The translations under genes were made by a program, and so were the position numbers. A model generated the notes under the pieces. That model searched no databases and had not been told where the DNA came from. It saw nothing but the letters and a program-made list of their open reading frames with translations. A stretch of 64,000 bases of DNA from Buttiauxella gaviniae ATCC 51604 (GTDB lineage Bacteria > Pseudomonadota > Gammaproteobacteria > Enterobacterales > Enterobacteriaceae), in contig NZ_LXEP01000008.1 of assembly GCF_001654835.1 (NCBI RefSeq), positions 1 through 64,000 on the forward strand, written 5' to 3'. This document shows positions 710 through 36,464 of the stretch, piece by piece. The stretch's first letter is position 1; every line of letters starts with the position of its first letter.

Positions 710-905
710 TATACCCGTCATACTTCAAGTTGCATGTGCGTTGGCAATACTCGCTCCCACCAGTCACTTACTTGATTAAGCTCCCGGGGATTAATGAGAG
801 ACTCCTGTCTCTCACCGGAGGCCAGCCTTTGGCTGGTCAAATTCGTTCCCGACGAATTTGTCACTGCGTCGCCGCCTTCCTACAACTCGAATTATTTTGG
901 GTATA
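710..905. repeat. ERIC element with an internal hairpin-rich insertion
   Basis: The left end TATACCCGTCATACTTCAAG and the right end (ACTCGAATTATTTTGGGTATA, inverted) are the termini of the enterobacterial repetitive intergenic consensus, as is the internal CAGTCACTTACTT...AAGCTCCCGGGGATT. A normal ERIC is about 127 bp; this one is 196 bp. The excess of about 70 bp lies between the central stem and the right-hand GCCGCCTTCC block. ERICs with insertions of about this size are known from other enterobacteria (recalled, not checked). Confidence 0.85.
796..860 (+). repeat. Three-hairpin module inserted in the ERIC
   Basis: Three consecutive perfect hairpins. H1 is GAGAGAC-TCCT-GTCTCTC (796-813), H2 is CCAGCC-TTT-GGCTGG (822-836), and H3 has the 9-bp stem CAAATTCGT with loop TCCCG (838-860). 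The same order of hairpins, with the same H3 loop and changed but still paired stems, occurs on the minus strand at 36398-36464 downstream of tRNA-Lys. This suggests a mobile or structured RNA module rather than chance palindromes. Confidence 0.75.
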
Positions 906-1625
906 GATGCAACAAAATAAAAATTTCGACGTGTCACTTTGTCTAAAAATGAACATCTTTCTTTAATTAAAATATTAGTATTAACTTTTTATTCACAATG
1001 AGTTCTGTATAAAATACGCGCTACAGCCAGCTACATAATAACTTACACTAAAAAATATAGTGAGGAACATCTCAAATAATAAAAAATTCATTTCCCAGAA
1101 AGAAATCAGGCTGATTCATATGCAAGCCTATTAAAATAAAAAACAAAACATCCACTTTTGAATAATCATGGCATTTATTATGCAAAATCGCTCTAAGTGC
1201 ATAAATAACACAGTGATATTATATATTTGTATCCATGGTGTTAAGATGTTATCACTAAAGAAATAATGTCCATTATTCTACATTCCAAATCAAACTCACT
1301 CAGATTTATCGTAGGCAATAAATTAAACAGCAGTTTTAAAACCTACAAAGATATAACTAATAAGATATTCACTCTGTAATTATCTAATTTAAAAGTGCTT
1401 CGTTCACTGCCAATATTGATGGTTATTTCAACACCTGTCGCATAACCTTGATTACAGTATAAATAATTTCATTCTCTCTCTTGCCGGTGAACTAAACTTT
1501 GCAAGAAGCCCGTACAACAGCAGCCCCATCATTTACATAATGAAATTATCTGTAAAGATTTGAACGGGACAGACATTTTGGCAAGAATGAGAATACCCAC
1601 GCGCTCACCACTTTTGGGAAACTAG
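906..1625. other. AT-rich non-coding stretch
   Basis: About 720 bases between the ERIC and the MipA-like gene, markedly richer in A and T than the flanking genes. I see no convincing reading frame, RNA gene or strong terminator. It must hold the promoter of the MipA-like gene and perhaps that of the adhesin. Long A/T runs would suit silencing by H-NS, which is inference. Confidence 0.5.
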
Positions 1626-2423
1626 ATGAGACCAGACCGACAGTTTGCTGCACTCTGCTCCCTGCTGTTAATAAGTACATACGCGAAAGCCGAAGTTGAT
1701 CTTGGCTCCTTAGACTTATTCGCCAAGGACAATGTCACCAGCCCCATCCCTAAAGGCCTGGTCCTGGGCGGGGCTGTCATTAGTGGCACGCCACGTTACG
1801 AGGCGCAGAAAAATGATACTTATATCATCCCCGGCGCTGTCTATTTTGGCGAACAATTTATGTATCTGGGCGACCGTGCGCGCTACTACTTTCACCTGGA
1901 CGATAAAGTAGCTGCTTATGCATATGGCAGGTTCCGCTTTGGTAACCTTGACCCCGATGATGAAGATGCATTCGACGGGATGAACAAGCGAAAATCAGAG
2001 TTAGAAGCTGGTGTCGGTGGAACTCTCATTACCCCTTACGCCCTGCTTAGTGCGCGAATTAGTTCAGATGTAACAGGCCGTAGTAATGGTCAGGAATTAT
2101 TGCTGTGGGCTGATTTTCCAATCATTAAGGGAAATTTGTTGGTTATGCCCGGCATGGGGATGATGATTCGCAGCGATAAGATGGCGAACTATTACTTCGG
2201 CGGTGTCTCGAAAAGCGAAGCAACACCTGAACGCTCGGAATGGGATACCGGTACTACCTTCTCCCCAATGGCTGCAGTAATTACCAGCTATCGCTTCAAT
2301 TCCAAATGGCTAGGAATGTTTGCTGCCAACTATGAATTTTATGACAAAGATATCGCTGATAGTCCAATCGTTCAGCATAACGGAGAGCTGTATGGGCTCC
2401 TTGCCGTCGGCTATATCTGGTAG
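1626..2423 (+). CDS. MipA/OmpV family outer-membrane protein
   Basis: 265 residues. Residues 1-22 form a signal peptide with probable cleavage AKA|EV. The rest has alternating polar and aromatic strands typical of a small beta-barrel, and the protein ends in aromatic GYIW as expected for outer-membrane assembly. The segments TPRYEAQKNDTYIIPGA, YYFHLDDKV and the terminal DSPIV...GLLAVGY fit MipA/OmpV. E. coli MipA scaffolds murein synthases; other members are porins or antibiotic-related. I would not carry the MipA role over without testing. Monocistronic, followed by a strong terminator. No good ribosome site precedes the ATG. Confidence 0.8.
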   Translation: MRPDRQFAALCSLLLISTYAKAEVDLGSLDLFAKDNVTSPIPKGLVLGGAVISGTPRYEAQKNDTYIIPGAVYFGEQFMYLGDRARYYFHLDDKVAAYAYGRFRFGNLDPDDEDAFDGMNKRKSELEAGVGGTLITPYALLSARISSDVTGRSNGQELLLWADFPIIKGNLLVMPGMGMMIRSDKMANYYFGGVSKSEATPERSEWDTGTTFSPMAAVITSYRFNSKWLGMFAANYEFYDKDIADSPIVQHNGELYGLLAVGYIW

Positions 2424-2432
2424 AGATAAATA

Positions 2433-2478
2433 TGCTGAGTCAGGTTCTAATAAATAAACTGACTCAGCAATAGTTTTT
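2433..2478 (+). terminator. Rho-independent terminator after the MipA-like gene
   Basis: Perfect 11-bp inverted repeat TGCTGAGTCAG ... CTGACTCAGCA around a 15-base loop, followed by ATAGTTTTT. It lies 10 bases past the stop codon. Confidence 0.8.
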
Positions 2479-2622
2479 GCTTATATCTCAGCAACCGTGC
2501 AATTTATTATCTCCGGTTGATGATAATATTTTATAAACTTTAGCCTCTCAAATAAATGGCATTACCCATTGAGTTTGCAGCGTGATTTATTCAACGCAGA
2601 GGCCAGCACAAGGTATTGATAT

Positions 2623-3825
2623 TTACTGGGTGCTTCGTGTGCTCAATGCCATTACCGCACTGGCTACGGTGAACAAGCCAATAATCCAGGCCATTGTCCA
2701 CGGCGTTCCATCACTGAGCAGTGCCAACAGCAACGAAGAGATAATCCCGCTGCCGTACTGCAATGACCCCATAAAGGCGGATGCGGAACCAGCAACGTTT
2801 GGTACTGAATCCAGCGCGGCGGCGGTAGAGGTTGCGGCAATAATGCCGTTCATCGAGAAGAAGACAAAAACGGCCGCCACAATCAAAATCAACCCACCAA
2901 TTTCTAGCTTCGCAGCAGCGGCCAGAACCAGAGCGGCAACGGCGGCAGTAACGACGGCGAATTTAAGCAACACTTCCAACGGATAACGCTGCACCAGACG
3001 GCGGTTTATCACGCTCATGCCCATCAGCCCAACAATGTTCAACGCAAATAGCCAACCGTAGTGCTGCGGCTCCACGCCAAAATAAGTGATGTAGACAAAC
3101 GGCGAGCCGGTAATAAACGCGTAGGCCGCGACGTAATAGAAGGTCAGGCACAGGGTAAAACGCATGAAAGTAGTGTTCGTTAGTAGCGCGTAGTAGTTAC
3201 GAAATGCGCTGGGTAACGAGGCTTTTACCCGCTTTTCTTGCGGCAATGTTTCAGGCAACCAGAACAGTGAAATAAACATCATCCCGCCAATCACTGCCAG
3301 CAACCAAAAAATTGCGTGCCAGGAGGTGATTTTAATCATCTGCCCACCGAGCAGTGGCCCGGCAATGGGTGCAATCGCCATAATGATCATTAATGTTGAT
3401 AGCATTTGCGCGGCACGCGTCCGGCTAAACAAATCGCGGATCATCGCTCGCGCCAGCATCGGCCCGGTGCAGGCACCCAGAGCCTGGAACACGCGCCAGA
3501 AAACAATCTGCGAAATGTCGGTGGAAAGTGCGCAGCCTACTGAGCCAATCATAAACAGCCCCATACCAATAAATAAGGGCAGGCGGCGGCCAAAGTGATC
3601 GCTTAACGGCCCCCAAATCAACTGGGCGACACAAAAGCCCATTAAGAACCCGGTTATCGTCAGTTCTGCATTGCCGTGCAGGTCCTGGGCCATTAACGGC
3701 ATGGCTGGCAAATAAATATCAGTCGATAAAGAAGTGAACGCCATTAACGCGCTAAGAATAATCACGAAAGAGAGGCCGGCCGTTTTACTGGCTGCGGTCT
3801 GCACGCGCGCCTGAGAGTCAATCAT
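2623..3825 (-). CDS. Bcr/CflA-type multidrug efflux MFS transporter
   Basis: 400 residues with about 12 membrane segments, proton-driven drug/H+ antiporter of the DHA1 class. The signature STDIYLPAMP is at 34-43 and the loop 2-3 motif GPLSDHFGRR at 72-81, both typical of the Bcr/CflA subfamily (bicyclomycin, chloramphenicol, florfenicol exporters). Transcribed away from the divergent SDR gene. The start ATG lacks a clear Shine-Dalgarno, so an internal start is possible. Substrate cannot be read from the sequence. Confidence 0.85.
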   Translation of the reverse strand: MIDSQARVQTAASKTAGLSFVIILSALMAFTSLSTDIYLPAMPLMAQDLHGNAELTITGFLMGFCVAQLIWGPLSDHFGRRLPLFIGMGLFMIGSVGCALSTDISQIVFWRVFQALGACTGPMLARAMIRDLFSRTRAAQMLSTLMIIMAIAPIAGPLLGGQMIKITSWHAIFWLLAVIGGMMFISLFWLPETLPQEKRVKASLPSAFRNYYALLTNTTFMRFTLCLTFYYVAAYAFITGSPFVYITYFGVEPQHYGWLFALNIVGLMGMSVINRRLVQRYPLEVLLKFAVVTAAVAALVLAAAAKLEIGGLILIVAAVFVFFSMNGIIAATSTAAALDSVPNVAGSASAFMGSLQYGSGIISSLLLALLSDGTPWTMAWIIGLFTVASAVMALSTRSTQ

Positions 3826-4021
3826 AGAATTTCGTACCCAAATAAGTCAGGCGCTTATAGTAACGACTGCGCGCAAAAAGATAATCCAGGATAATCGGAT
3901 AGCCATTATGAATCGTGCTCATGAATGTATTTAACGCCAGGGGAAATCCTGGTTGCTCTCCAGCCTGCCGAGTTTGTCCTAAGCTTACTGTCTGCGTTTG
4001 AAATGCCAACAGGAGAAAAGT

Positions 4022-4930
4022 ATGAGTGATAACAAAAACATACCCGCAAACCGTAACGAAACACACGCAGATCAATTCCCTACCCCACCCTTTCCCCATC
4101 AAAAACAGCCTTTCCCTGGGCTTGCCGGGAAAATGACGCCGCGCCCCGATCACGGCGAAACATCCTATAAAGGCAGTGGCCGTCTGGCGGGGAAAAAGGC
4201 ACTGATAACCGGTGGTGATTCCGGGATTGGCCGGGCGGTAGCTATCGCCTTTGCGCGCGAAGGTGCGGATGTTGCAATCAACTATCTGCCTGAAGAAGAG
4301 GAAGATGCTAAAGAGGTTATCGAATTGATTCGCGAGGCTGGGCGTAAAGCGGTTGCCATTCCCGGAGATATTCGCGAAGAGTCATTCTGCCAACAGCTGG
4401 TGAAACAGGCTGCGCAAGAGCTTGAGGGATTGGATCTGCTGGTGAACAATGCGGGTCGTCAGCAGTATTGCGAGTCGATTAAAGATCTCACTACAGAAGC
4501 CTTTGATGCGACGTTCAAGACCAATGTTTACGCCATGTTCTGGATAACTAAAGCCGCGTTAGATTATCTGCCGCGCGGTGCATCTATTATTAATACCTCG
4601 TCGGTTCAGGCATATCTCCCCAGCGAAATTCTGCTCGATTATGCCCAGACCAAAGCGGCCATCGTGGCATTCACTAAGTCGCTGGCAAAACAGCTTGGGC
4701 CAGAAGGCATCCGGGTGAATGCGGTCGCTCCCGGCCCTTACTGGACGGTTTTGCAGTGTTCCGGCGGTCAGCCACAAGAGAAAATTGAAAAATTCGGTGA
4801 GTCCGCGCCGCTTGGCAGACCAGGGCAGCCTGCAGAAATTGCCGGGATGTATGTGACGCTTGCCTCGCCTGAGTCGAGCTTTACGTCAGGCCAGGTGTGG
4901 TGTTCAGATGGTGGTACCGGGACGCTGTAA
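4022..4930 (+). CDS. SDR family oxidoreductase (YghA/glucose-dehydrogenase-like)
   Basis: 302 residues, NAD(P)-dependent short-chain dehydrogenase. I chose the ATG at 4022 because AGGAGA lies 6 bases before it; a longer frame begins at 3998. The first 50 residues are a polar, Pro/His-rich extension (HADQFPTPPFPHQKQPFPG) seen in the stress-related YghA/YhdF group. The Rossmann motif TGGDSGIG is at 63-70 and NNAG at 142-145. The catalytic set is Ser194, Tyr207 and Lys211 (YAQTK). All key residues are intact. Substrate unknown. It shares a terminator with the convergent DUF421 gene. Confidence 0.88.
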   Translation: MSDNKNIPANRNETHADQFPTPPFPHQKQPFPGLAGKMTPRPDHGETSYKGSGRLAGKKALITGGDSGIGRAVAIAFAREGADVAINYLPEEEEDAKEVIELIREAGRKAVAIPGDIREESFCQQLVKQAAQELEGLDLLVNNAGRQQYCESIKDLTTEAFDATFKTNVYAMFWITKAALDYLPRGASIINTSSVQAYLPSEILLDYAQTKAAIVAFTKSLAKQLGPEGIRVNAVAPGPYWTVLQCSGGQPQEKIEKFGESAPLGRPGQPAEIAGMYVTLASPESSFTSGQVWCSDGGTGTL

Positions 4931-4931
4931 A

Positions 4932-4979
4932 GTGCGGCCACAGAACGGGGATGCCTTTCTCCGTTCTGGCACTTTATTT
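4932..4979. terminator. Terminator between the convergent SDR and DUF421 genes
   Basis: Stem CAGAACGG ... CCGTTCTG, extended outward by GTGC/GCAC, then TTTATTT on the plus strand. It lies between two convergent stop codons and overlaps the last codons of the DUF421 gene. Confidence 0.65.
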
Positions 4980-5420
4980 GGATTCTGGGACGATGGAGAT
5001 ATGACCGTTGGTTTCCAGGATCGCAAACTTAATTTCATCAAGCCGGGTAATGCCGTGGTCAACTCTCGCCATTAACAAAATATCGTCGCAGGAAATATCG
5101 GCTTTTTTCATTTTGTCCTGAAAAAGGTAGCCATTTTCCACCAGAATAACCGGCGTTCCATCAAGTAGATCATCCGCTCCCGGCAGATATTTTTTAATCA
5201 TGCCAAACAGAATATCCACCACAATTAAAGTGACGATCGTAATCATCGCGCCGGTCACTGAAAAATCATTTCCCAGCAGTGCCTGTTGGGTGGCCTCACT
5301 AATAATCAGCAGTAATATCAGGTCAAAAGAGGTCATTTGCAGCAGGGCACGCCGACCCGCAATCTTAAAAACCACCATCAATATCAAGTAAATGGCAAGA
5401 GCCCTTAATACCATATCCAT
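4974..5420 (-). CDS. DUF421 family membrane protein (YetF-like)
   Basis: 148 residues, three hydrophobic segments in the first 80 residues followed by a soluble domain. The sequences RLALYLxL-like VLRALAIYLILM, IAGRRALLQMT, SEATQQALLGND and LDGTPVILVENG are hallmarks of DUF421. Function is not known; some Bacillus members affect spore or envelope stability. Length is short but usual for the minimal enterobacterial form. The preceding gene ends 12 bases upstream, so the two are probably one operon. GAGGTGG precedes the start. Confidence 0.8.
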   Translation of the reverse strand: MDMVLRALAIYLILMVVFKIAGRRALLQMTSFDLILLLIISEATQQALLGNDFSVTGAMITIVTLIVVDILFGMIKKYLPGADDLLDGTPVILVENGYLFQDKMKKADISCDDILLMARVDHGITRLDEIKFAILETNGHISIVPESK

Positions 5421-5432
5421 TGTCTGGCCACC

Positions 5433-5939
5433 TCAGGGATAGATAATTTGCCGGAATGTAATATCCGGTCCGCCATCAACCGCTATCGTGCTTTTAATCA
5501 GGCCTGCTTTCATCGGGGTAAGACTTAGCCACAGTGTTTGCTGCGCACCTGCTGTAGGTTTGTCATATTCAACGATCATTTCTCCATTAAGGCTGTACAT
5601 TTTATCCGGCTGCGGTTGCAGAGAATCAACGCGAAAACTCTCCATAAAATCACCGCCAAAAATAATACGGTTGTGATCACCAAGGGATGAGACTGAAACA
5701 ATTTTCATGTCAGCATCACTCATCAGCCGATTGAATTTTTCATAATGAAGGGAAAGCGAGCCATTGGTATTGGAAAGGTGAGAATCACTCAGATATCCCT
5801 TTGAAAATATCCCGCACAAGGCGGCAACAACAATCAGCAACAGCAGGACAAAACCATAGCGCCGCACCTGAAAGTCAAAGTTAAGCCAGAACGGTTTTTC
5901 GACAACGGGTGAAGATTTATCGGCGGGTGTTATTTTCAT
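5433..5939 (-). CDS. Hypothetical single-pass membrane protein
   Basis: 168 residues, not recognised. A short basic cytoplasmic N-terminus is followed by one membrane segment at about 29-46 (YGFVLLLLIVVAALCGIF), then about 120 residues predicted outside with beta-rich character (MYSLNGEMIVEYDKP, QTLWLSLTPMKAG). It is upstream of, and 12 bases from, the DUF421 gene and so probably co-transcribed with it. Its outward domain may partner DUF421, which is inference from position only. Confidence 0.65.
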   Translation of the reverse strand: MKITPADKSSPVVEKPFWLNFDFQVRRYGFVLLLLIVVAALCGIFSKGYLSDSHLSNTNGSLSLHYEKFNRLMSDADMKIVSVSSLGDHNRIIFGGDFMESFRVDSLQPQPDKMYSLNGEMIVEYDKPTAGAQQTLWLSLTPMKAGLIKSTIAVDGGPDITFRQIIYP

Positions 5940-6063
5940 TATTTCAATCCAGCCAGAAGAAAAGATTTAGCCACACCATGATGAAAGTAACATCACTCAA
6001 TTGAGCTTAGTCAAAGGGAAGAACCTCCGCCATGATTCGGAAAACGGAGAGTCCCTAAGTGGT

Positions 6064-8151
6064 TCATTTTTTAACCAGAACTGAACATAACTCTTGTAAT
6101 GGAAGCGGTCGGTGAAATAAGAATCCCTGCGCATAGGATACACCGGCAGAGAACACTTTTTTTCTCTCGTCCTCAGTTTCAACGCCTTCAATAAGAACCA
6201 TTGCATTTGTTCCCTTGCAAAGAGTCACAACATTTTTTAGAAAGCAAAATCCATTATCTTTATTAAGATTTTGCACTAAGCTTCTGTCTAATTTTATTTT
6301 ATCAAGATCATATTCATTGATATATGAAATAGTTGAGTAGCCAGAGCCAAAATCATCAAGAGAAATTTTAACCCCCAAGGCTTTAATTTCGCTCAAACAC
6401 TTTGAAAGCATTTTCGGATCACTTATTTTTTGCGATTCGGTTATCTCAAACTCTAACACCCATCCATTTGGCAAAGGCTCACTTAAACATTTTTTAATGA
6501 TAGAGTGTAGTCGATTATCACTCAATGTTTGTGGCGACATGTTAATACACATTGTATAGCCTTTGAAGCCTAAAAGCTGGGTGCGGATTATATTAACCAC
6601 AGTCTGTAAAACCCAAAAATCTATTTCAGGCATTAAATTTAAACGTTCATAATATTCAAGAAAAACAGGAGGTGTTATTGTGCCATCTTTAGCTTTATGA
6701 CGAATAAGTGCTTCGCAACCAATGATTTCATTTTCAGGGAGTTTCACCTGAGGTTGAAAATATAAAATGAAATCACCATTTTTTCTGAGATTATTTATTT
6801 TATCTTGTGCAATGAAATGATCATTCATTTCTGCCAGGTAGTTATTGCTACGGACGGAATTAAATTCAGCGGGATGATTAATCACTTCATTTTGTGATAA
6901 CAGACTGACATTTAAATCTTGCAGTATCTTATCATTAAAATTAATTCGAGACTCCATGACCTTCAGAAAAGCGTGATAAATTTTCGCACCAATAGCAATA
7001 ACCATTATTTGTAACACGACCATTCTTACCGACCCTCCGCTTGCCAGCCATGCATTCATCAGTGGTGGCGTAACCCATGAAAATTGACTCTGCAAAGGTG
7101 GAATGAGCCCGACGATGGTTGCTACATAGGCCACTGTATAGTTCATCATAGGCACTAAAATAAAGGGGATAATCATTATCGGATTGAGGACGATGGGCAC
7201 GCCAAACAGTAGCGTGTCATTGGTGTTAAATATTGATAAAGGCGCAGAAACGCTGAGTAGTTTACGATAATATTTTTTATCGCTGAATAGCATCGCTGCA
7301 GCAAGGCTAAGCGTTGAACCACTGCCACCAATATTGCACCAGACGTTAAAAAACATACTACTGATCACATTTAACGTTGCATGGCCTGCATGCCAGGCAG
7401 CAATGTTATTGTTAGTGGAAAGGACTAATGAGTGTAATTGTGTTTCTAATAAATTTTCGCCGTTGAGGCCAAAGAACCAGGAAGCCCCACAGAATAATAA
7501 ATATATCAACCCGTGAAAATAATCACTCGGGTATAAAGAGCGCGCCACTCCACTAACAATAAAATATAAATCCCCTTTCCATAACTTGATAAGCGAACCA
7601 CATAAATAAAGCAGTATAAATGCCAGCGCAGCGCCACAAAATAAATACCATGCGAAAAACCTTTCATGTTTACGATCATGAATATAGTTAATTGTTTTTT
7701 CGCATACTATACCGGTTGTCGCACCAAGAAGCATGGATGCAGAAATATTAACATCCAGAAAGAAGTAAGGTGACTCGCTAAAAAAGCTACTCACTATAAT
7801 TAACACACCTAAGTTAATTAAAGCCAAACTCATTGGGGGTATTCTGTTACGCCTTGCAAAGTGCATAGATAAGAAGACATTCAACATTATTGGAGCTATT
7901 TTTACCAAACCTTCTTTTAAAAGCGACAACCATGAATATATATTTTCGAACCCAGCAATTAAGGAGACACTTGAAATAAGCTCTAGCATACCGCATGCAA
8001 CGAAAAGCGGGACCATTGCCATGGTGCTTGAGGCGATAGCATTAAAAAGTCTGCTATTAACGATACAACTCACCACCTGCGAGCCCGCCCCCTCTTTACA
8101 AAAGATAAAAAACTTTCTCACTACCACCTCAAAGAAAAACAGGCTGAACAC
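6064..8151 (-). CDS. PTS EIIC-like membrane domain fused to an EAL phosphodiesterase
   Basis: 695 residues from the GTG at 8151. A GTG at 8121 (residue 11), with GAGG 5 bases before it, is a better start. Residues 30-400 are an EIIC domain of the lactose/cellobiose type: NIGGSGSTLSLAAAM at 273-287 and NDTLLFGVPIVLNP at 311-324. There is no EIIA or EIIB. Residues about 455-690 are an EAL domain with EALIRH (480), INMS (N537), EITE (569-572), DDFGSG (599-604), K620, IEGVE (654-658) and QGF. All metal and catalytic residues look present, so it should hydrolyse c-di-GMP. Presumably sugar binding or transport state controls the enzyme; that is inference. Confidence 0.85.
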   Translation of the reverse strand: MFSLFFFEVVVRKFFIFCKEGAGSQVVSCIVNSRLFNAIASSTMAMVPLFVACGMLELISSVSLIAGFENIYSWLSLLKEGLVKIAPIMLNVFLSMHFARRNRIPPMSLALINLGVLIIVSSFFSESPYFFLDVNISASMLLGATTGIVCEKTINYIHDRKHERFFAWYLFCGAALAFILLYLCGSLIKLWKGDLYFIVSGVARSLYPSDYFHGLIYLLFCGASWFFGLNGENLLETQLHSLVLSTNNNIAAWHAGHATLNVISSMFFNVWCNIGGSGSTLSLAAAMLFSDKKYYRKLLSVSAPLSIFNTNDTLLFGVPIVLNPIMIIPFILVPMMNYTVAYVATIVGLIPPLQSQFSWVTPPLMNAWLASGGSVRMVVLQIMVIAIGAKIYHAFLKVMESRINFNDKILQDLNVSLLSQNEVINHPAEFNSVRSNNYLAEMNDHFIAQDKINNLRKNGDFILYFQPQVKLPENEIIGCEALIRHKAKDGTITPPVFLEYYERLNLMPEIDFWVLQTVVNIIRTQLLGFKGYTMCINMSPQTLSDNRLHSIIKKCLSEPLPNGWVLEFEITESQKISDPKMLSKCLSEIKALGVKISLDDFGSGYSTISYINEYDLDKIKLDRSLVQNLNKDNGFCFLKNVVTLCKGTNAMVLIEGVETEDERKKVFSAGVSYAQGFLFHRPLPLQELCSVLVKK

Positions 8152-9315: not shown

Positions 9316-9362
9316 CGCTGCCCTCTTCGCCCAATCACTTATCTATTGATAATTAGCATACA

Positions 9363-27655: not shown

Positions 27656-27667
27656 CATCTGCCTCTG

Positions 27668-27689: not shown

Positions 27690-27703
27690 CAAGCTATCAA
27701 AAA

Positions 27704-27902: not shown

Positions 27903-27918
27903 TTTGAGTTTGGTCACA
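27903..27918 (+). promoter_or_regulatory. CRP site upstream of nupC
   Basis: TTTGA-GTTTGG-TCACA matches TGTGA-N6-TCACA at 9 of 10 positions, about 100 bases before the nupC start. nupC is a known CRP/CytR target in E. coli. Confidence 0.55.
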
Positions 27919-28013
27919 GGACATCACTATAGTGTGCGATTAGTCTCGTTTTCTTATTGCTTGTTTCATAGAATGTGCAACGAAATTAAACCTGCCTCAT
28001 GTTTGGAGCAAAT

Positions 28014-29201
28014 ATGTCCCGCGTTCTTCACTTTGTCTTAGCGCTTGCCGTGGTAGCGCTACTTGCTTTATTGCTAAGTAGCAACCGTAAGCAAATTCGT
28101 ATTCGCTTTATCGTTCAACTGTTAGTGATTGAACTCATTCTCGCCTGGTTCTTCCTGAACTCAGAAATCGGTCTGGGCTTTGTGAGAGGTTTCTCAGAAA
28201 TGTTTGAGAAACTGCTGTCGTTCGCTAACGAAGGGACAAACTTTGTATTCGGTAAGATGAATGACGAAGGACTCGCCTTCTTCTTCCTGAAAGTACTCTG
28301 CCCAATCGTCTTTATCTCCGCGCTGATCGGGATATTGCAGCACATCCGTGTTCTGCCGATTGTTATCCGCTTTATCGGTACCGTTCTGTCTAAAGTGAAT
28401 GGTATGGGTAAACTGGAATCCTTTAACGCCGTAAGCTCGCTGATTCTGGGACAATCAGAAAACTTTATCGCCTATAAGGATATTCTCGGCAAGATGTCGC
28501 GCAACCGCATGTACACCATGTCCGCTACGGCCATGTCTACCGTGTCCATGTCGATTGTCGGTGCTTACATGACGATGCTCGAGCCAAAATATGTGGTCGC
28601 CGCGCTGGTGTTGAACATGTTCAGTACCTTTATCGTACTGTCGCTGATTAACCCTTATCGCGTTGATGAGAGCGAAGAAAATATCCAGATGTCTAACCTG
28701 CACGAAGGCCAAAGCTTCTTCGAAATGCTCGGTGAATACATTCTGGCAGGTTTTAAAGTTGCGATTATTGTTGCAGCGATGCTGATTGGCTTCATTGCCT
28801 TGATTGCCGCACTGAACGCACTGTTTGCAGCAATCTTCGGCATCTCCTTCCAGGGCATCCTGGGTTACATCTTCTACCCGGTAGCCTGGGTGATGGGTGT
28901 TCCGTCGCATGAAGCATTGCAGGTTGGTAGCATCATGGCCACCAAACTGGTTTCCAACGAATTCGTTGCGATGTTGGATCTGCAAAAACTGGCCGGTACG
29001 CTTTCCCCACGTGCGGAAGGTATCCTGTCAGTGTTCCTGGTGTCGTTTGCCAACTTCTCTTCTATCGGGATCATCGCTGGTGCGATTAAAGGCCTGAACG
29101 AAGAGCAAGGTAACGTGGTTTCTCGCTTCGGCCTGAAACTGGTTTACGGCGCAACTCTGGTGAGTATTCTGTCAGCATCTATCGCTGGTCTGTTCTTGTA
29201 A
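28014..29201 (+). CDS. nupC: Nucleoside:H+ symporter NupC
   Basis: 395 residues from the ATG at 28014 (GGAG 6-7 bases before), matching E. coli [11 protein letters not shown] here as [11 protein letters not shown]; the frame extends five codons upstream. Concentrative nucleoside transporter with the family motifs [20 protein letters not shown] and VSNEFVAM. Imports pyrimidine nucleosides and adenosine. It lacks about five residues relative to E. coli around [10 protein letters not shown]. Confidence 0.96.
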
Positions 29202-29211
29202 TTCTCACAAT

Positions 29212-29244
29212 AAAAAGCCGGGGCAATTTGCCCCGGCTTTTTTA
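29212..29244. terminator. Terminator after nupC
   Basis: AAAAAGCCGGGGC-AATTT-GCCCCGGCTTTTTT. Very strong stem with T and A tracts on both sides, so it can serve both nupC and the convergent cyclase gene. Confidence 0.92.
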
Positions 29245-29254
29245 TGCCTAATTT

Positions 29255-30895
29255 CTATGCCTGGCTAACACCATCATCCTGCCAGCAGACCTGGTTTCTG
29301 CCTCGTTGTTTAGCGGTATACATCCGCATATCTGCAAGCGACTGGATTTGCTCAAGCGAGCACTCTGGAAGCTCACTGTAGGCCGCAACCCCTAACGAGG
29401 CAGTGATTTGTAACTGCGTACCGTCATCGAGGAGCAGAGGCGATGATTCAAGCTCCCACTTAATTCTTGTCGCGACCATAATCCCCGCTTTGAGGTCGGA
29501 ATTTGGCAGGAAAATGCAGAACTCTTCACCGCCGATACGCCCCAGAATATCCTGGCTGCGAACCGCACGCTGAATGCGCTGAGTCGCATGCACCAGCACA
29601 TTGTCACCGACCTGATGCCCGTAAACATCGTTCACTTTCTTGAAGTGGTCGAGATCTAATTGCACAAGTGTGTAATCTACATAATCAGGGCTAATTTGTG
29701 ATGTTTTCTCAAAGAAGCCACGGCGGTTAAGTGCGCCGGTCAAGTCATCGTGAAGCGCATGGTGCTGCATTTCACGCTGCAAGTTCCCCATATTGCGCAC
29801 CAGGCGGCAAATAACTCGGTGCGATCCCCAAAGGAAAAGCACGAATATTCCCCACATCGCGATCAACAGGATACTGAAACGGCCAAAATCTTCATGTAAA
29901 CCCTGGCTTAGGGTTTGGGTACTGATCAGTACCGAGCGCGTGCCAACAACTCTGCCAAAAGTGATGAATACCGACCCATCGCGCATCGTGCCGCGCGATG
30001 AGACTTCAAGCATCTGGCGAATAGTTTGTAGATGCTTAGCAGTGAGTTGAAATTGATTGCTCGACCCAACGGTACCGGTGAGTGGGATTAGCCGTTCATC
30101 AAACAGTTGGTAAGCACTCTGCGTATCTTCCGGTAATGACGCCGCAAGGAATTTTTGCACCGCATCATTTTCAAACGCAATCCCCAGAAGACCTATCCAT
30201 TCACCACGAAAATCGACAGGAATGGCGGCATTAACCAGAGTGTCATCAGTTTTAGCGATATTCTGCCGTGTCCAGAAAGGTTCTCGCTGTGGATTGAGCA
30301 ATGGCGAAGCCAGCACGAAACTACCCTGCTCTACTTGCGGGTTGTAACTGCTCACTAATAGTGAATTCATCTCCTGGGATAGCGAGACAATAAATTCGCC
30401 ATCGCGTGAGATGTAGTACAAATCTGCAGTCAGTTCATTGGCCCCTGTCGCTAACGGGAAAAGACCTTGAATCTTCCGCAATGCATAGAGCTGCTGGCGG
30501 ACTTGTAGCGCGTCCTCGCCGTGAAATGCGCTGTCTTCGGTAAGCGTATCGGGCAAAGGTAACTCGCGGATCCACAATGGTGAATCACCAACATCACCTG
30601 TAATTTCCGAAGGAACAGTTGCCACACCAGGGAACAAAGGATCGTCCATCGCTTCAATAAAAATTCGTTTTAGGTAGCGAAGGTTATCAACTTTGTACTG
30701 TGCTTTACTTTCGATTCTGGCAATCACACTTTCGAGGTGACTAAGCTGGCTTGTACGGTAGCCATGGCTAAATAGCTGTCCTTGCTGCCAGAATAAAAAA
30801 GTGGTCAGCGCAAAAACAAAAATGAAAACCAGATGGATAACCCGGAGTGTTTTTGCCATTGGCAGGCGAAATCTATTCGCTAAAGAAGTGCTCAC
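29255..30895 (-). CDS. Diguanylate cyclase with periplasmic sensor domain
   Basis: 546 residues from a GTG with AAGGGG about 7 bases before. A membrane segment at about 18-38, a periplasmic region of about 300 residues (probably Cache-like), a second membrane segment near 345-362 and a C-terminal GGDEF domain. The active site is GGEEF at 455-459 and the inhibitory I-site RSQD is at 446-449, so it should make c-di-GMP and be product-inhibited. It lies 36 bases downstream of pdeA on the same strand. E. coli has no cyclase between nupC and pdeA. Confidence 0.9.
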   Translation of the reverse strand: MSTSLANRFRLPMAKTLRVIHLVFIFVFALTTFLFWQQGQLFSHGYRTSQLSHLESVIARIESKAQYKVDNLRYLKRIFIEAMDDPLFPGVATVPSEITGDVGDSPLWIRELPLPDTLTEDSAFHGEDALQVRQQLYALRKIQGLFPLATGANELTADLYYISRDGEFIVSLSQEMNSLLVSSYNPQVEQGSFVLASPLLNPQREPFWTRQNIAKTDDTLVNAAIPVDFRGEWIGLLGIAFENDAVQKFLAASLPEDTQSAYQLFDERLIPLTGTVGSSNQFQLTAKHLQTIRQMLEVSSRGTMRDGSVFITFGRVVGTRSVLISTQTLSQGLHEDFGRFSILLIAMWGIFVLFLWGSHRVICRLVRNMGNLQREMQHHALHDDLTGALNRRGFFEKTSQISPDYVDYTLVQLDLDHFKKVNDVYGHQVGDNVLVHATQRIQRAVRSQDILGRIGGEEFCIFLPNSDLKAGIMVATRIKWELESSPLLLDDGTQLQITASLGVAAYSELPECSLEQIQSLADMRMYTAKQRGRNQVCWQDDGVSQA

Positions 30896-30931
30896 AAATC
30901 AGCCCCTTGATTATATGCTCGCAACATACTG

Positions 30932-33127
30932 CTACCTTAATGTATGGACTAAGGCCAGAGGCTCTGGCTTGCCTATCAGATACCCTTGTAAAAAATGTAC
31001 GCCGAGTTCGCATAACAGCCTGCGCTGCTCTTCCGTTTCAACAAACTCAGCCACAACAATCAATTGCTTCGCTCGAGCCATATCACATATAGATTTAACA
31101 ATCAGTGGGTCAAGCGAGTCGGTGGTGATGTCTTTAATGAAGCAACCATCAATCTTAATAATGTCCGCATGCAACCTTTTCAACCGCTCGTAGTTCGCAT
31201 AACCGGTACCAAAGTCGTCGATGGCAATTTTAAACCCATAATCACGCAGTAATGTAATGTTCTGCATTGAAGTTTCTGAGTCTGAAAAAGCCTGTTCCTC
31301 GGTGACTTCAATAATCACGCTGCTGGCTGGCACCTGAAATTGCGTAAACAATGAAATAATATTCTGCGCAATATCCTTTTGCATCAAGGTCAACGGCATA
31401 AGGTTTACCGAGAAACGTGACTGCTCGCCCTTCTCTGGGTGAAGATACAAATAATTCACCAGCTTCTTCACCACTAACATATCGAAGTGCGTGCTGAGGT
31501 TAAACTCGGCAATAACAGGAATAAACTTATCCGGGGTAATTAATTCATCATCAAAAGTGATGCGGCTCAGTATTTCGTGATATCCATGTCCCATCTTATT
31601 CACAATAGGTTGTGCATAGAGAGTGACAGGTTCTTCTTCATTTAAGGCCCGTTTGATTTTTTGCAGTAACAAAACACGCTCTGTCGTTTTGTCAGAGACA
31701 TATTCAACTCTGGTATTCAAGCTGAGCACGCGTAACGATTCACTCGCCTGTTCGGAAAGAAAACTTAATTGCCCTAAAGTGTGGTGTAATTCTTCAAGGC
31801 TATTGTCGATAACGCTATAGGATGCGCCGTACTCAATTTCCAGCATGGTGTTATGCCATGTTATTTTTTTGCTATTGAGTAAATCAACAATATGTTCGAG
31901 TCGCGCATCGGTATGTTGTCCGCGGAGGAAAATTAATAATTCACTGCCGGGTAACTGAAATATTTGTTCGCCTTCATGCAGGAAAGGCGTTATCTGGCTG
32001 GTAACCATGCGCTTACAATGAATTCGCATCATCATGCCGTAATGGCGGCTTAAAAATTCCAGGTTCGACATCCGTAGGCAGCAAAGCGTCCCTTCCGGAT
32101 AACATTGCACATGATGTTCCAGCGCACGTAAATTTGGTAATTGTGTTAACGGATCGGTTAGTGACTGCGAATGATAAATGCGTTTCATCCATTCGTTTTT
32201 CTTAAACATCATCGTCATGTACAACATACAGACGGAAAAAGAGATGAAAACAGAAAGAATGAATGACAGGGCAAATTCTGTATTAACCCCGTAAAGGAAA
32301 CCATCGTTATATGTCAATAGTAGCCATACGGATATAGCCCATAACAGCCCCATTAAACGCGGGCCAAAATGGCGGATACCCAGCGTAAATAGCACAAAAA
32401 TAGCGGGCACGAGGTAACCTGAAACCTGCAACATGCCCCACGACGAGCACAGCACAACCAGCAGAGTTATCAGGCATAACATCCAGGTCAAAGAATAAAA
32501 ACGGCGTGGACCAATGAAATCGCGCATCACGCAACGACGCCAAAAGGCTCGGACGTAATTTGGATTCAGGATCATTCTGAGTGGATAGTAAAACAGGAAA
32601 GTAAATATCAGCGAGGCGGCAATTAAATTTTGAAAATCCACTACCATAAACATGAGTGAATTGTCACCAAAGTACGCAGCCACTGCTTCTGGAAATTGAA
32701 TATATCGTCCCGCCAGATACATCAATAATTTAGTGCTAAAAGGCGCGACAAACCCTAGCCAGAATATCCGAGTCCCCATTCCTTTATCGGTCAGAGCATA
32801 GCGCCACCTCGTCCCAAGATAATGACGGGCAATTATGCTACAAACTATTATTGGAAATATCAGGCAAAAAACAAATGATACTAACGCCACAAATGACAGA
32901 TGTAGTACGCATGAGAATGTCACTGCTGATGAAATTATTAGAGGAATAATCGCAGTCCGGCCATAGATAAACACCATGGCTATCAACAAACCCATTGGGA
33001 GATAAGCGAGATAAACCTGAACACCATCAATTGTCGTTAACGGTGAAATGTAGCGAGAAAAAGGGACAAGCAAGAGAGATAAAACCAGTGCTGTGACGAA
33101 TTTCTTGATAGATTTTTGAAAAATCAT
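30932..33127 (-). CDS. pdeA: Cyclic-di-GMP phosphodiesterase PdeA (YfeA)
   Basis: 731 residues from the ATG at 33127 (AGGG before it); the open frame extends 27 codons further up, but E. coli PdeA is 729. Residues 1-280 form a MASE1-like membrane sensor. A degenerate GGDEF follows (SLTDPLTQLPNLRALE, with LPGSELLIF in place of the active site). The C-terminal EAL domain has EILSRI in the EAL position, NLMP, EVTEEQ, DDFGTG, KIDG and QGYLIGKP. Its close match in E. coli also has EIL. Catalysis is likely but not certain. Confidence 0.92.
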   Translation of the reverse strand: MIFQKSIKKFVTALVLSLLLVPFSRYISPLTTIDGVQVYLAYLPMGLLIAMVFIYGRTAIIPLIISSAVTFSCVLHLSFVALVSFVFCLIFPIIVCSIIARHYLGTRWRYALTDKGMGTRIFWLGFVAPFSTKLLMYLAGRYIQFPEAVAAYFGDNSLMFMVVDFQNLIAASLIFTFLFYYPLRMILNPNYVRAFWRRCVMRDFIGPRRFYSLTWMLCLITLLVVLCSSWGMLQVSGYLVPAIFVLFTLGIRHFGPRLMGLLWAISVWLLLTYNDGFLYGVNTEFALSFILSVFISFSVCMLYMTMMFKKNEWMKRIYHSQSLTDPLTQLPNLRALEHHVQCYPEGTLCCLRMSNLEFLSRHYGMMMRIHCKRMVTSQITPFLHEGEQIFQLPGSELLIFLRGQHTDARLEHIVDLLNSKKITWHNTMLEIEYGASYSVIDNSLEELHHTLGQLSFLSEQASESLRVLSLNTRVEYVSDKTTERVLLLQKIKRALNEEEPVTLYAQPIVNKMGHGYHEILSRITFDDELITPDKFIPVIAEFNLSTHFDMLVVKKLVNYLYLHPEKGEQSRFSVNLMPLTLMQKDIAQNIISLFTQFQVPASSVIIEVTEEQAFSDSETSMQNITLLRDYGFKIAIDDFGTGYANYERLKRLHADIIKIDGCFIKDITTDSLDPLIVKSICDMARAKQLIVVAEFVETEEQRRLLCELGVHFLQGYLIGKPEPLALVHTLR

Positions 33128-33376
33128 AAGCCCTGGTCTGAGTATTCTGTAATGGCTTTGCAGCATTATTCGGTGATAAATAATACGTTTATTTGTTGCG
33201 CAAATCAAGTTTGCGAATTATTGCATGTAGTTAAATTTATTGGTTTTTTATACAACCCAACAAAGAGAAATAGTTTGATATATTCATATTGAGAATACAT
33301 CGTATTTATATATTCACTAAATTGATGAAAATCGTGCTCAGATCACTATTTTGTGAAGTTATTCTGGCGCAGAAAC

Positions 33377-33407
33377 GAAAAAACCCCCGCCATTAGGCGA
33401 GGGTTTC
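33377..33407 (-). terminator. Terminator of the tRNA-Ala operon
   Basis: On the minus strand AACCCTCGCC-TAAT-GGCGGGGGTT followed by TTTT. It lies just past the second tRNA-Ala. Confidence 0.85.
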
Positions 33408-33413
33408 ATATTT

Positions 33414-33489
<76 letters not shown>

Positions 33490-33535
33490 ACGAATGGGTT
33501 TGGTTTAAACGATTCAAATCTTGCTGGTAAAGATT

Positions 33536-33611
<76 letters not shown>

Positions 33612-33644
33612 GTACCGTGAAACCGTGTCGTATCGACGGGCGGC

Positions 33645-33673
33645 ATCATATGAAACCCATTCAATAGTGTCAA
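33645..33673 (-). promoter_or_regulatory. Sigma-70 promoter of the tRNA-Ala operon
   Basis: TTGACA, 17 bases, TATGAT, then the GC-rich discriminator GCCGCCC typical of stringently controlled stable-RNA promoters. It ends about 33 bases before alaW. Confidence 0.85.
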
Positions 33674-33832
33674 CGTCAAATTCAGCTTCTGCGATTAATC
33701 GCCGAAAAAGCAAACAATACAAGTAAAAGCAGATGCATCTCGTCTTCCTGTAGTTAATCCTGTCACAGTTTCCAGTAAAATGATCCTCTAAAATGAACCA
33801 CTAATAACCCCTTTGGATTTAAGGAAAAAACT

Positions 33833-34186
33833 GTGCTCAAGGAACGTATGACCCCGGAAGAGCTGGCGATGATTACTGGTTATAGTCGCCAAACAATCAA
33901 CAAATGGGTACGCAAAGAAAGCTGGCTCACAACTCAAAAACCCGGTGTTCAGGGAGGTAAAGCTCGCCTGATTCATGTGGATGAACGTGTTCGCGATTTT
34001 ATTAATAGTGCAAAACGCGTTTCGGAGAAACTCAGCAGCTACCACGTTAATGACACTTCACTGGAAGGGCTTTTGCTCAATTCGATGAAACAGATGTCTA
34101 TCTCGGAACAAGAAAAGATGTCTGCATTGATTCTGCGAGAAGGCATTGCTGGGGTGTTAAAGCGTTTAGGTATTCGTGATGAGTAA
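33833..34186 (+). CDS. yfeC: DUF1323 putative DNA-binding protein YfeC
   Basis: 117 residues from a GTG with AAGGA 7 bases before it. N-terminal helix-turn-helix MTPEELAMITGYSRQTINKW followed by VQGGKARLIHVDERVRDF, as in E. coli YfeC. The C-terminal LILREGIAGVLKRLGIRD also matches. E. coli has the paralogue yfeD next door; here only one copy is present. Target unknown. Followed by a strong terminator. Confidence 0.9.
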   Translation: MLKERMTPEELAMITGYSRQTINKWVRKESWLTTQKPGVQGGKARLIHVDERVRDFINSAKRVSEKLSSYHVNDTSLEGLLLNSMKQMSISEQEKMSALILREGIAGVLKRLGIRDE

Positions 34187-34196
34187 AACGAGTATC

Positions 34197-34222
34197 AAAA
34201 AGCCGGCATAAGCCGGCTTTTT
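34197..34222. terminator. Bidirectional terminator between yfeC and gltX
   Basis: AAAAAGCCGGC-ATAA-GCCGGCTTTTT, perfect and symmetrical, between two convergent genes. Confidence 0.92.
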
Positions 34223-34249
34223 AGTCACAACACTTTATAACGCGGGGCG

Positions 34250-35665
34250 TTATTGTTGTGCTTCGCGCGCAGCAATGAATTCCAGAGCCTGATTAATACG
34301 AGCAATCGAACGTTGCTTACCAATCGCGTGAACAGTGACATCAAGACCAGGTGACTGCCCTGCCCCTGTAACAGCGACACGCAACGGCATACCAACTTTA
34401 CCCATACCTACTTCCAACTCATCAGCGGTTGCCTGAATTGCATTATGCACATTCTCTGCAGTCCAGTCGGTCAATGCTGCCAGTTTATCGCGCACAACTT
34501 CCAGCGGCTGACGAGCAACCGGACGAAGGTGTTTCTTCGCAGCATCCGCGTCAAACTCACTGAAATCTTCATAGAAGTAGCGGCAAGTTTCAGCCATCTC
34601 TTTCAGCGTTTTGCAGCGGTCGCCCAACAATTTAACCAACTCAGCCAGTTGTGGGCCGTTGCGGGTATCAATATTTTGCTGCTCGATATGCCATTGCAGA
34701 TGGGTCGCAACATATTCAGGAGCAAGGTGGTTAATGTAGTGGTGGTTAAGCCACTGCAATTTTTCAGTGTTGAATGCACTGGCCGATTTGCTAACGGAGT
34801 CCAGTGTGAACAATTTGATCATCTCTTCACGAGTGAAGATTTCCTGATCGCCATGAGACCAGCCCAAACGCACCAGGTAGTTCAACAGAGCTTCTGGTAG
34901 ATAGCCATCGTCACGATACTGCATGACACTAACTGCACCATGACGTTTGGACAGTTTTTTACCGTCGTCACCATTAATCATGGAAACATGCGCATAAACC
35001 GGAACTGGCGCATTCAATGCTTTCAGGATGTTGATCTGACGCGGAGTGTTGTTGATATGGTCTTCGCCACGAACAACGTGGGTGATTTCCATATCCCAGT
35101 CATCCACTACAACACAGAAGTTGTAGGTTGGGGATCCATCGGTACGGCGAATGATCAGATCATCCAACTCCTGGTTGCTAAATTCGATTGGGCCACGGAT
35201 CTGGTCATCGAAAATAACAGAACCTTCTTGCGGGTTGGCAAAACGCACAACACATGGTTCATCAGCAGTATGATGCTCATGGCCATGACGGCAGCGCCCG
35301 TCATAACGCGGCTTGTCGCCGTTCGCCATTTGTTCTTCACGCAAAGCTTCAAGGCGTTCTTTAGAGCAGTAGCATTTGTAGGCTGTACCAGCTTCCAGCA
35401 TCTCGTCGATAACCGCGTTATAGCGATCAAAACGCTTGGTCTGATAGTACGGGCCTTCATCCCACTCAAGGCTCAGCCAGTTCATGCCATCCATAATAGC
35501 TTCGATAGCTTCTGGTGTTGAACGCTCAAGGTCTGTGTCTTCTATACGAAGCACGAACTCACCGTCGTGGTTACGAGCAAAAAGCCATGAATAGAGAGCA
35601 GTACGAGCACCACCAACGTGCAAATAGCCTGTTGGGCTTGGCGCGAAGCGAGTTTTGATTTTCAT
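34250..35665 (-). CDS. gltX: Glutamyl-tRNA synthetase
   Basis: 471 residues, the E. coli length. Class I signature HIGH appears as [11 protein letters not shown] (10-19). KMSKS appears as [11 protein letters not shown] near 232-242. The zinc-binding segment [15 protein letters not shown]...CRHGHEH is intact. Charges tRNA-Glu for translation and tetrapyrrole synthesis. Divergent from the tRNA-Val/Lys operon. Confidence 0.98.
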
Positions 35666-35880
35666 TAAACGGCCTTAATTACGCAAAAGTACCGGGGAAC
35701 CGGCAAATGCCAGGGAATATAGAGTGGGCAACATTCTACCACTGTGTACTGATTCCTCAATGTCGATACCCTTTCTTGTCTTCAATCCACATATTTTGAT
35801 GACAAATCAATCACCAATGCGTAATTCGCGATCGCATTGTTTATTTTTACGACGAACGAACAAAATCTTTAGAAAAGGCG

Positions 35881-35908
35881 TTGACTCATTTTCAACTCTC
35901 CCTATAAT
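35881..35908 (+). promoter_or_regulatory. Sigma-70 promoter of the tRNA-Val/Lys operon
   Basis: TTGACT, 16 bases, TATAAT, then a GCGACTCC discriminator. Transcription would begin about 10 bases before the first tRNA-Val. Confidence 0.88.
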
Positions 35909-35925
35909 GCGACTCCACACAGCGG

Positions 35926-36001
35926 GGGTGATTAGCTCAGTTGGTAGAGCACCTCCTTTACACGGAGGGGGTCGGCGGTTCGAGCCCGTCATCACCCACC
36001 A
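35926..36001 (+). tRNA. valU: tRNA-Val (anticodon TAC)
   Basis: 76 bases with encoded CCA. Acceptor GGGTGAT/ATCACCC, anticodon arm CCTCC-TTTACAC-GGAGG, T arm GGTTCGAGCC. First of three identical copies, in the order valU-valX-valY-lysV of E. coli. Confidence 0.97.
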
Positions 36002-36044
36002 TTCATTAGTGAGTGATTCCGCAGTGTAGCAAGAGATAAGATTT

Positions 36045-36120
36045 GGGTGATTAGCTCAGTTGGTAGAGCACCTCCTTTACACGGAGGGGGTCGGCGGTTC
36101 GAGCCCGTCATCACCCACCA
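36045..36120 (+). tRNA. valX: tRNA-Val (anticodon TAC)
   Basis: Identical to the copy at 35926-36001. A 43-base spacer separates them. Confidence 0.97.
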
Positions 36121-36153
36121 TTATCTACTCTTGCAATAGAAGTACCGAAGTTT

Positions 36154-36229
36154 GGGTGATTAGCTCAGTTGGTAGAGCACCTCCTTTACACGGAGGGGGT
36201 CGGCGGTTCGAGCCCGTCATCACCCACCA
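36154..36229 (+). tRNA. valY: tRNA-Val (anticodon TAC)
   Basis: Third identical copy, after a 33-base spacer. Only 3 bases separate it from the tRNA-Lys gene. Confidence 0.97.
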
Positions 36230-36232
36230 TTC

Positions 36233-36308
36233 GGGGCGTTAGCTCAGTTGGTAGAGCAGTTGACTTTTAATCAATTGGTCGCAGGTTCGAATCCTGCACG
36301 CCCCACCA
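36233..36308 (+). tRNA. lysV: tRNA-Lys (anticodon TTT)
   Basis: 76 bases with encoded CCA. Acceptor GGGGCGT pairs exactly with ACGCCCC; E. coli has GGGTCGT/ACGACCC, so a compensated pair change has occurred. Anticodon loop CTTTTAA, T arm GGTTCGAATCC. The last 18 bases plus one following A are repeated 181 bases downstream. Confidence 0.97.
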
Positions 36309-36314
36309 AATTTA

Positions 36315-36343
36315 GACAAAAGCGCCTTCGGGGCGCTTTTGTC
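36315..36343 (+). terminator. Terminator after tRNA-Lys
   Basis: GACAAAAGCGCC-TTCGG-GGCGCTTTTGTC followed by GTTTC. Very stable stem containing the TTCG tetraloop sequence, 7 bases past the tRNA. Confidence 0.85.
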
Positions 36344-36397
36344 GTTTCTAAGGCTCGATCTTTTTCATGCTGGGTTCGAACCTGCTGCAGGTTTGAC

Positions 36398-36464
36398 AAA
36401 ATCGTCGGGAACGATTTTACATCACCGCTTGCGGTGAACCTCAGGGCGAGTCTCAGGATGAGAC
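36398..36464 (-). repeat. Three-hairpin module, second copy
   Basis: Read on the minus strand: H1 GTCTC-ATCCT-GAGAC (36450-36464), H2 TCACCGC-AA-GCGGTGA (36422-36437), H3 with arms AAAATCGT and ACGATTTT around loop TCCCG (36398-36418). Order, spacing, H3 loop and the linker ending GAGG before H2 match the ERIC insert at 796-860. Stem sequences differ but remain paired. Confidence 0.72.

Follow-up and report, generated by a model that had tools for sequence, protein, structure and literature searches.

Two hairpin blocks of Buttiauxella gaviniae are probably copies of one small mobile element at the core of tRNA-linked repeats

Long enterobacterial repetitive intergenic consensus (ERIC) elements reportedly carry internal insertions of about 70 bp, said to have been described by De Gregorio in 2005 and by Wilson and Sharp in 2006, and we know of no connection drawn between these insertions and tRNA-linked repeats (TLRs) or the regulator CsrA. 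Elements of the IS200/IS605 type and repetitive extragenic palindromic (REP) sequences have hairpins near their ends, lack terminal inverted repeats and make no target duplication. TLRs have been described in tRNA and rRNA operons, their hallmark being a repeat of the tRNA 3' end (PMC8144298). In the parts of that account covered here, RrA, RrB and RrF, small RNAs (sRNAs) of the rrnA, rrnB and rrnD dual terminators, are treated as TLRs conserved in Enterobacteriales; RrB binds CsrA with an overall KD of about 100 nM, which is lost on mutating three GGAs, and also binds Hfq. Here we analyse two hairpin blocks in 64,000 nt of Buttiauxella gaviniae ATCC 51604 (NZ_LXEP01000008.1, positions 1 to 64,000, called the window). 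Both blocks are probably copies of one small mobile element that forms the core of TLRs, the TLR module, with transcripts that would bind CsrA.

An earlier note on this DNA had proposed a single three-hairpin module at two distant loci. Both blocks are present and fold as it described: the stems differ in sequence yet remain paired, and hairpin order, spacing and loops agree. The genome was searched with each block separately, which gave additional copies, and on aligning these the module was seen to have four hairpins; the three-hairpin reading was dropped. What had passed for a linker ending in GAGG is a degenerate second hairpin, reduced in copy 1 to CC-GGA-GG directly 5' of hairpin 3 and reading GCCCC-TTT-GGGGC in better copies. 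The first half of the shared plan is T-ACTCG, hairpin 1 (GGCCC-ATCCAT-GGGCC), TC and hairpin 2 (GCCCC-TTT-GGGGC), and the second half is hairpin 3 (CGCAG-CAAG-CTGCG), TT, hairpin 4 (CAAATCTGC-TCCCG-GCAGATTTG) and TC. Module matches are 62-103 bp long, with 212 of 215 falling in 66-88, and the limits of the two blocks, formerly 796-860 and 36398-36464, were extended to those in Table 1. Both blocks are indeed copies of the module; what did not hold is that they form a private pair, the family being large.

Beyond hairpin 4 the two copies share little primary sequence. A covariance model (R1), trained on seven modules of this genome, copy 2 included and copy 1 left out, detected copy 1 genome-wide with 33.8 bits (E 7.1e-5), which is more than a chance likeness. 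At E<=10 it gave 33 matches in the genome, and at E<=1e-4 it gave 26, which represent 25 places, since two overlap (C50). A second model (R2) was built from 98 matches, both window copies among them. Copy 2 scores 75.4 bits with R1 and 67.3 bits with R2, both trained with it, and copy 1 scores 49.4 bits with R2, whose training set includes it.

Two copies alone cannot show covariation, and it is shown instead by two larger sets of 84 and 98 distinct sequences. Their alignments were fitted to the model structure, a bias favouring that structure, and with this in mind the values are as follows: in the nearer set, for which 88 sources supplied 98 matches (84 distinct), 96.7% of 1931 cells were paired, both sides had changed in 22 of 24 pairs, and covariation was 0.540, where shuffles gave 0.146 (standard deviation 0.007) and slid controls no more than 0.107, while the class-wide set (117 matches from 70 sources, 98 distinct) gave 0.547 against 0.151 in shuffles. 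The 88 and 70 sources were picked from loci at hand with duplicates not fully removed, and pairs were counted on distinct rows. A seven-sequence MAFFT alignment with a hand-drawn structure gave 0.403 against 0.139. The compensatory stem changes seen earlier are thus far above shuffled and slid controls, and since scans of the genome and its relatives gave further copies, with stems that co-vary, the proposal of the note withstood the refuting conditions set for it. This is one module with its structure kept by covariation. Selection may act on RNA or on single-stranded DNA: the CsrA-type loop favours the former, and insertion without target duplication points to a step at the DNA level.

Copy 2 is a TLR behind a lysV-type tRNA. 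It lies behind a tRNA gene, as TLRs do, and the 3' end of tRNA-Lys, ATCCTGCACGCCCCACCA, recurs as the final 18 bp of the repeat (36472-36489, +), where the TLR criterion asks for 18-19 bp. We classed the block at 36353-36489 as a TLR because it matches the Rfam family RtT (RF00391), below the cut-off, and has this 18-bp repeat, the TLR hallmark; the split T-arm, hairpins 1-3 and the GAGTA end are further likenesses. On the minus strand the hairpins read GTCTC-ATCCT-GAGAC, TCACCGC-AA-GCGGTGA and AAAATCGT-TCCCG-ACGATTTT. The left junction has extra bases, for which reason the boundary is approximate. The RNA fold has z = -2.78, with 3 of 200 shuffles equally stable; the opposite strand folds less well (z = -1.36, 19 of 200), not clearly above shuffles. 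The RtT-sense strand is the plus strand, the same sense as the tRNA operon.

Copy 1 is an insertion at a recurrent ERIC position, site B. That its block lies inside an ERIC was confirmed: both halves of the element at 710-905 are covered by BLAST against an ERIC from this genome that has no insert (82% and 89% identity), and GGGGATTCACTG is present in an ERIC without insert (L021), the empty counterpart of the site. Its RNA fold has z = -4.96, none of 200 shuffles being equally stable. Copy 1 does not stand behind a tRNA or rRNA gene, as a TLR would, the closest tRNA in the window being at 33414, and it gave no RF00391 match at E<=10.

Table 1. Coordinates of the two module copies and of associated features in the window
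Feature	Position	Strand	Remarks
ERIC element, host of copy 1	710..905	+	TATA...TATA ends, read in the sequence
Putative scar of a second module, ERIC site A	748..753	+	TACTCG (module left end), then ERIC flank CTCCC; by-eye comparison with filled site A in L013/L048
Module copy 1	792..860	+	69 bp in F orientation; interrupts ERIC site B, GGGGAT^TCACTG
Copy 1 hairpin 1	796..813	+	GAGAGAC-TCCT-GTCTCTC
Copy 1 hairpin 3	822..836	+	CCAGCC-TTT-GGCTGG
Copy 1 hairpin 4	838..860	+	CAAATTCGT-TCCCG-ACGAATTTG
LapA-type retention-module adhesin, N-terminus	3..680	-	NF033682, 120.7 bits, cut-off 50
tRNA-Lys	36233..36308	+	Last of Val-Val-Val-Lys, order as E. coli valU-valX-valY-lysV
tRNA-linked repeat / RtT-like RNA enclosing copy 2	36353..36489	+	RF00391, 31.4 bits, E 4.4e-4
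Module copy 2	36397..36470	-	F orientation on minus strand; boundary approximate
Copy 2 hairpin 1	36450..36464	+	GTCTC-AGGAT-GAGAC; CsrB-like AGGAT loop

Among known relatives, the stretch between rrnB T1 and T2 of E. coli K-12 scores 66.6 bits with R2 and is RrB, a full module copy with AGGAC and CGGGA loops. With the R2 filters off, K-12 further gave rttR/tpr at 24.9 bits plus three more weak copies, four matches in the lysT operon at 16.7-23.5 bits with one at 12.0, and 12.2 bits only at the site behind lysV. RrB is a clear copy, and rttR, in which hairpin 4 is degenerate, and the lysT-operon repeats are diverged relatives. TLRs are known from tRNA and rRNA operons, whereas the module here also occurs in ERICs, other repeats and genes; as far as our literature search shows, this wider distribution is new. 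No paper found in that search joins TLRs to ERIC insertions or mobility; the original ERIC papers were not covered, and priority for the ERIC insertions is left unjudged. The account of RrA, RrB and RrF, in the parts covered, does not connect them with mobility or with insertions in ERICs or genes (PMC8144298).

Matches in Rfam, which the earlier note had suggested looking for, were found in part: RtT and AaHKsRNA22 both align, but copy 2 and the best AaHKsRNA22 matches lie below the cut-offs. AaHKsRNA22 (RF02902), which we take to be an Aggregatibacter sRNA, matches ERIC-borne modules full length on the RtT-sense strand (L048 39.1 and L056 38.9 bits, cut-off 39.8), and the Rfam scan gave no match to it in either window stretch. 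For RF00391, with its gathering score of 45, a copy at C7 reached 44.1 and stayed below, and L092 reached 45.5. Copy 1 and the other ERIC-borne copies look like the internal inserts, some 70 bp in length, that are reported for long ERICs. Rickettsia palindromic elements, described in the part of the source covered as short structured mobile DNA inside protein and RNA genes, were set apart by description, host group and size being different. YPAL/RU-2 and RU-3 were set apart by eye, without alignment. Miniature inverted-repeat transposable elements do not fit either, the module ends being T(A)CTCG and TTTG and no duplication beyond one ambiguous T being seen at readable empty sites.

The evidence for mobility comes from empty and filled sites. 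In these the element spans T to TTTG and is placed directly before T(C), with one T ambiguous. The junctions read GGCTGCAC^TCACAAACC, GGGGAT^TTGCTCCC, AAGTGAT^TCGGG and, in tRNA-Tyr, GGAT^TCGAACC; for the final two the empty state was taken from other ERICs and the usual tRNA arm. The left flank usually ends in T, the right flank starts with T, usually TC, and target duplication is absent where empty sites can be read. Among 76 distinct, partly related contexts (98 minus 8 without a recognised right end and 14 duplicates), T was found at -1 in 63 and C at +2 in 63; T at +1 was imposed by the search pattern. The clearest case is a helicase gene with an in-frame insert of 75 bp (25 codons) in G175 and G499, which G498, G496 and G507 do not have; in G175 its boundary, CTGT^TCGAG, is exact against these three empty relatives. 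The same gene has a second insert, also of 75 bp, with a boundary set by eye (the aligner placed the gap elsewhere), and a third of 78 bp in the other orientation with a less clear boundary. The tRNA-Tyr arm is filled in L092 and L094 (GGAT[...]TCGAACC), and an orthologous ERIC is empty in our genome (L014) and filled in G004 (L078). The proposal that the module moves between contexts is supported: copies occur in many contexts, and at least one gene shows an exact insertion. By eye, the tRNA T-arms and the repeats of G014 do look like loop insertions.

The loop of hairpin 1 suggests what the transcripts may do. In the published accounts, as far as covered, the CsrA consensus in CsrB is CAGGA(U/A/C)G and that of RsmE is A(N)GGAX, and we took an ANGGAX hexaloop on a stem as the criterion, A-GGAX being a weaker form. 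On the RtT-sense strand, 87 of the 98 class-wide copies have A(N)GGAX as the loop of hairpin 1 (61 ANGGAX hexaloops and 26 AGGAX pentaloops), although these copies were picked from the top matches of a model with consensus loops and are biased towards such loops. The pattern is C-G closed, with A fixed, N optional, GGA fixed and X free; in the same set it is absent from hairpins 2 and 3 (0/98) and from the opposite strand (0/98). GGA is also found in the loop of hairpin 4, mostly as CGGGA or CTGGA (94/98 class-wide, 67/84 in the nearer set). At the sequence level the family thus has the hairpin shape recognised by CsrA and RsmE, and copy 2 has the AGGAT pentaloop. CsrA binding has been established by others for RrB; by analogy, the RtT-sense transcripts of other copies would bind it too, and the element would then seed CsrA sites where it lands. 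Genomes with CsrA carry the module more often (46 of 133, against 3 of 67 CsrA-negative genomes, namely G052, G369 and G391; Fisher p 5.8e-7), in a cross-table assembled by hand from two lists and confounded by phylogeny, which lends weak support. One genome, G420, has nine CsrA-family matches.

Apart from the bias in the class-wide loops, a number of points weigh against a mobile module with CsrA-binding transcripts. On the side of the loop, A(N)GGAX is not universal, being found in 51 of 84 sequences of the nearer set (33 hexaloops and 18 pentaloops); hairpin 4 mostly has CNGGA, without the A preferred by CsrA; copy 1 has an AGGA tetraloop, inexact for the CsrA shape; and the ERIC site-D subfamily, like rttR and the repeats of the lysT operon in the E. 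coli alignments, has no CsrA-type loop. In the parts of PMC8144298 covered, the remaining 19 E. coli TLRs have a CsrA-ligand score below 0.01, and the phenotypes of rrA, rrB and rrF are modest and in part conflict with one another, for deletion as for overexpression. In-gene copies occur in both senses, and the copies beside tRNA-Phe (L085, L086, L122, L145) are antisense to the tRNA on their RtT-sense strand. On the side of insertion, the L014/L078 pair also differs beside the junction (TT and AA), and in the tRNA-Lys copies (window, C7, L084) the left junction contains additional bases. Hairpin-loop insertion as a general rule is unsupported, the mean number of straddling pairs being 5.63 against 5.38 in swapped flanks, and neither a mobility enzyme nor an autonomous copy came to light, no systematic search for either having been made. 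The block enclosing copy 2 misses the RF00391 gathering score.

Much of this would also fit a purely selfish single-strand element, in which the loops (TCC / GGA) are transposase contacts on single-stranded DNA hairpins and resemble CsrA sites by coincidence. Insertion without duplication, the retention of the loops in copies of either orientation to the gene and the persistence of E. coli TLRs without a GGA loop would all be expected from it. IS200/IS605 elements and REPs resemble the module in having hairpins near the ends and no terminal inverted repeats or target duplication; they differ in that hairpin 4 of the module reaches the very end, and no guide sequence was identified, nor a Y1 enzyme found, though none was searched for. 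We consider such an element somewhat unlikely, as the variation of the hairpin-1 loop stays within what CsrA accepts (87/98), RrB is a demonstrated CsrA ligand (PMC8144298, in the parts covered), and we know of no partner of the Y1 type or any other.

The contexts of the copies bear on a second explanation, in which the module is a structured RNA, an sRNA or a processing element, that does not move by itself and is spread by duplication of tRNA and rRNA 3' ends, ERIC transposition and gene conversion. Duplicated 3' ends of tRNA and 5S genes are a constant companion of TLRs. In our genome BLAST places ERIC sequence within 160 bp of 23 of the 26 matches, so that these copies are in or beside ERICs; of the remainder, L068 shows ERIC ends by eye and two, copy 2 included, lie in T-arm copies of tRNA-Lys. 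There are four recurrent ERIC sites (A follows GTTGGC..., B follows GGGGAT, C follows AAGTGAT on the opposite strand and D precedes TCCTGCAAC), which tend to hold their own module subfamilies. Relatives have copies in the arms of tRNA-Lys and tRNA-Tyr and beside tRNA-Phe, and copies at L093, L105, L128 and L129 adjoin 5S-like sequence, judged by likeness to E. coli rrfB. All 15 copies examined in G285, picked for equal scores, carry one identical module inside larger repeats, and the copies examined in G161 ride in larger repeats as well. The tie of TLRs to duplicated ends, the 23 copies in or beside ERICs, the site subfamilies and the copies of G285 and G161 are what spread by the host sequences would give. 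The 75-bp inserts in a protein gene for which three relatives are empty weaken this explanation, as does the same boundary across unrelated contexts, and we regard it as improbable. That the blocks are unrelated hairpin clusters alike by chance might be argued from the little primary sequence they share beyond hairpin 4, yet it is refuted as far as an E-value can do so, since they are joined by R1 (E 7.1e-5), which had not been trained on copy 1, and intermediate forms exist.

We therefore return to the mobile TLR module as the probable explanation. It would be non-autonomous and inserted by an enzyme yet to be found, possibly by a Y1-type or similar single-strand reaction. A bolder version, which we put forward as rather doubtful, is a class-wide mobile RNA element whose replication or tolerance depends on CsrA binding, which inserts exactly before TC and rewires the Csr regulon with a ready-made hairpin, RrB being one copy.

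The family is widespread. R1 at E<=0.01 found the module in 23 of 40 relatives, our genome counted, and in 11 of 11 genomes of the genus; R2 at E<=1e-4 with stricter filters found it in 111 of 274 genomes of the class and 49 of 200 of the phylum, our genome counted in each, and a pattern scan found at least 119 stretches. Among the matches listed are Pectobacterium, Serratia, Yersinia, Klebsiella, Salmonella, Vibrio, Rheinheimera, Thioalkalivibrio and Methylomonas; the named groups among them we take to be Gammaproteobacteria, and two titles say only proteobacterium. Six viral contigs (L376-L381) each have an exact match to the hairpin-4 pattern. Identical or near-identical modules are nested in larger dispersed repeats at L170-L184 (G285), L192-L197 (G130) and L185-L191 (G161); the repeat of G285 ends near GTTAA, and that of G130 begins near GGAACC..CTGAATAAGTCC. 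In G014 (L106-L113) the modules stand between flanking inverted repeats with paired stem variation (GGCGCTG/CAGCGCC, GGCACTG/CAGTGCC, GGCATAG/CTATGCC). The gene-borne copies of G175 are in genes with a PglZ domain and an SNF2 helicase (Pfam). Its stretch L165, 1-16501 (16.5 kb), holds eleven modules, of which several lie in frame within the PglZ and SNF2-helicase genes; with an adjoining DNA methylase, it looks like a defence locus.

In the window, copy 1 is flanked by the adhesin gene (-) and a MipA/OmpV-like gene (+), and its ERIC is upstream of the former. The RtT-sense strand points to the adhesin gene, whose start is about 110 nt onward, and an effect of CsrA on this gene through copy 1 is conceivable; promoter-like sites on that strand at copy 1 were not above chance (3 found, 3.7 expected). 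The TACTCG at 748-753 is probably the remnant of a second, lost module, perhaps removed by recombination between CTCG repeats. Rfam isrH aligns weakly to both ERIC ends (window 710-910, -; 16.2 bits, cut-off 45), and the isrH sRNA model may itself contain ERIC sequence. A small FlxA-like gene (36633-36977, +) lies downstream of the tRNA-Lys and TLR block.

The TLR module would unite TLRs, the RrA, RrB and RrF sRNAs and the internal insertions of ERICs as one mobile element, with AaHKsRNA22 as a near match. It offers a testable answer to the nature of TLRs and to why dual rrn terminators enclose an sRNA. The rrnB T1-T2 cassette is widely used in plasmids (PMC8144298, in the parts covered), and many cloning plasmids with this cassette carry a module copy, RrB. 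If the reading is true, a mobile CsrA hairpin would be a route for a global regulator to gain targets.

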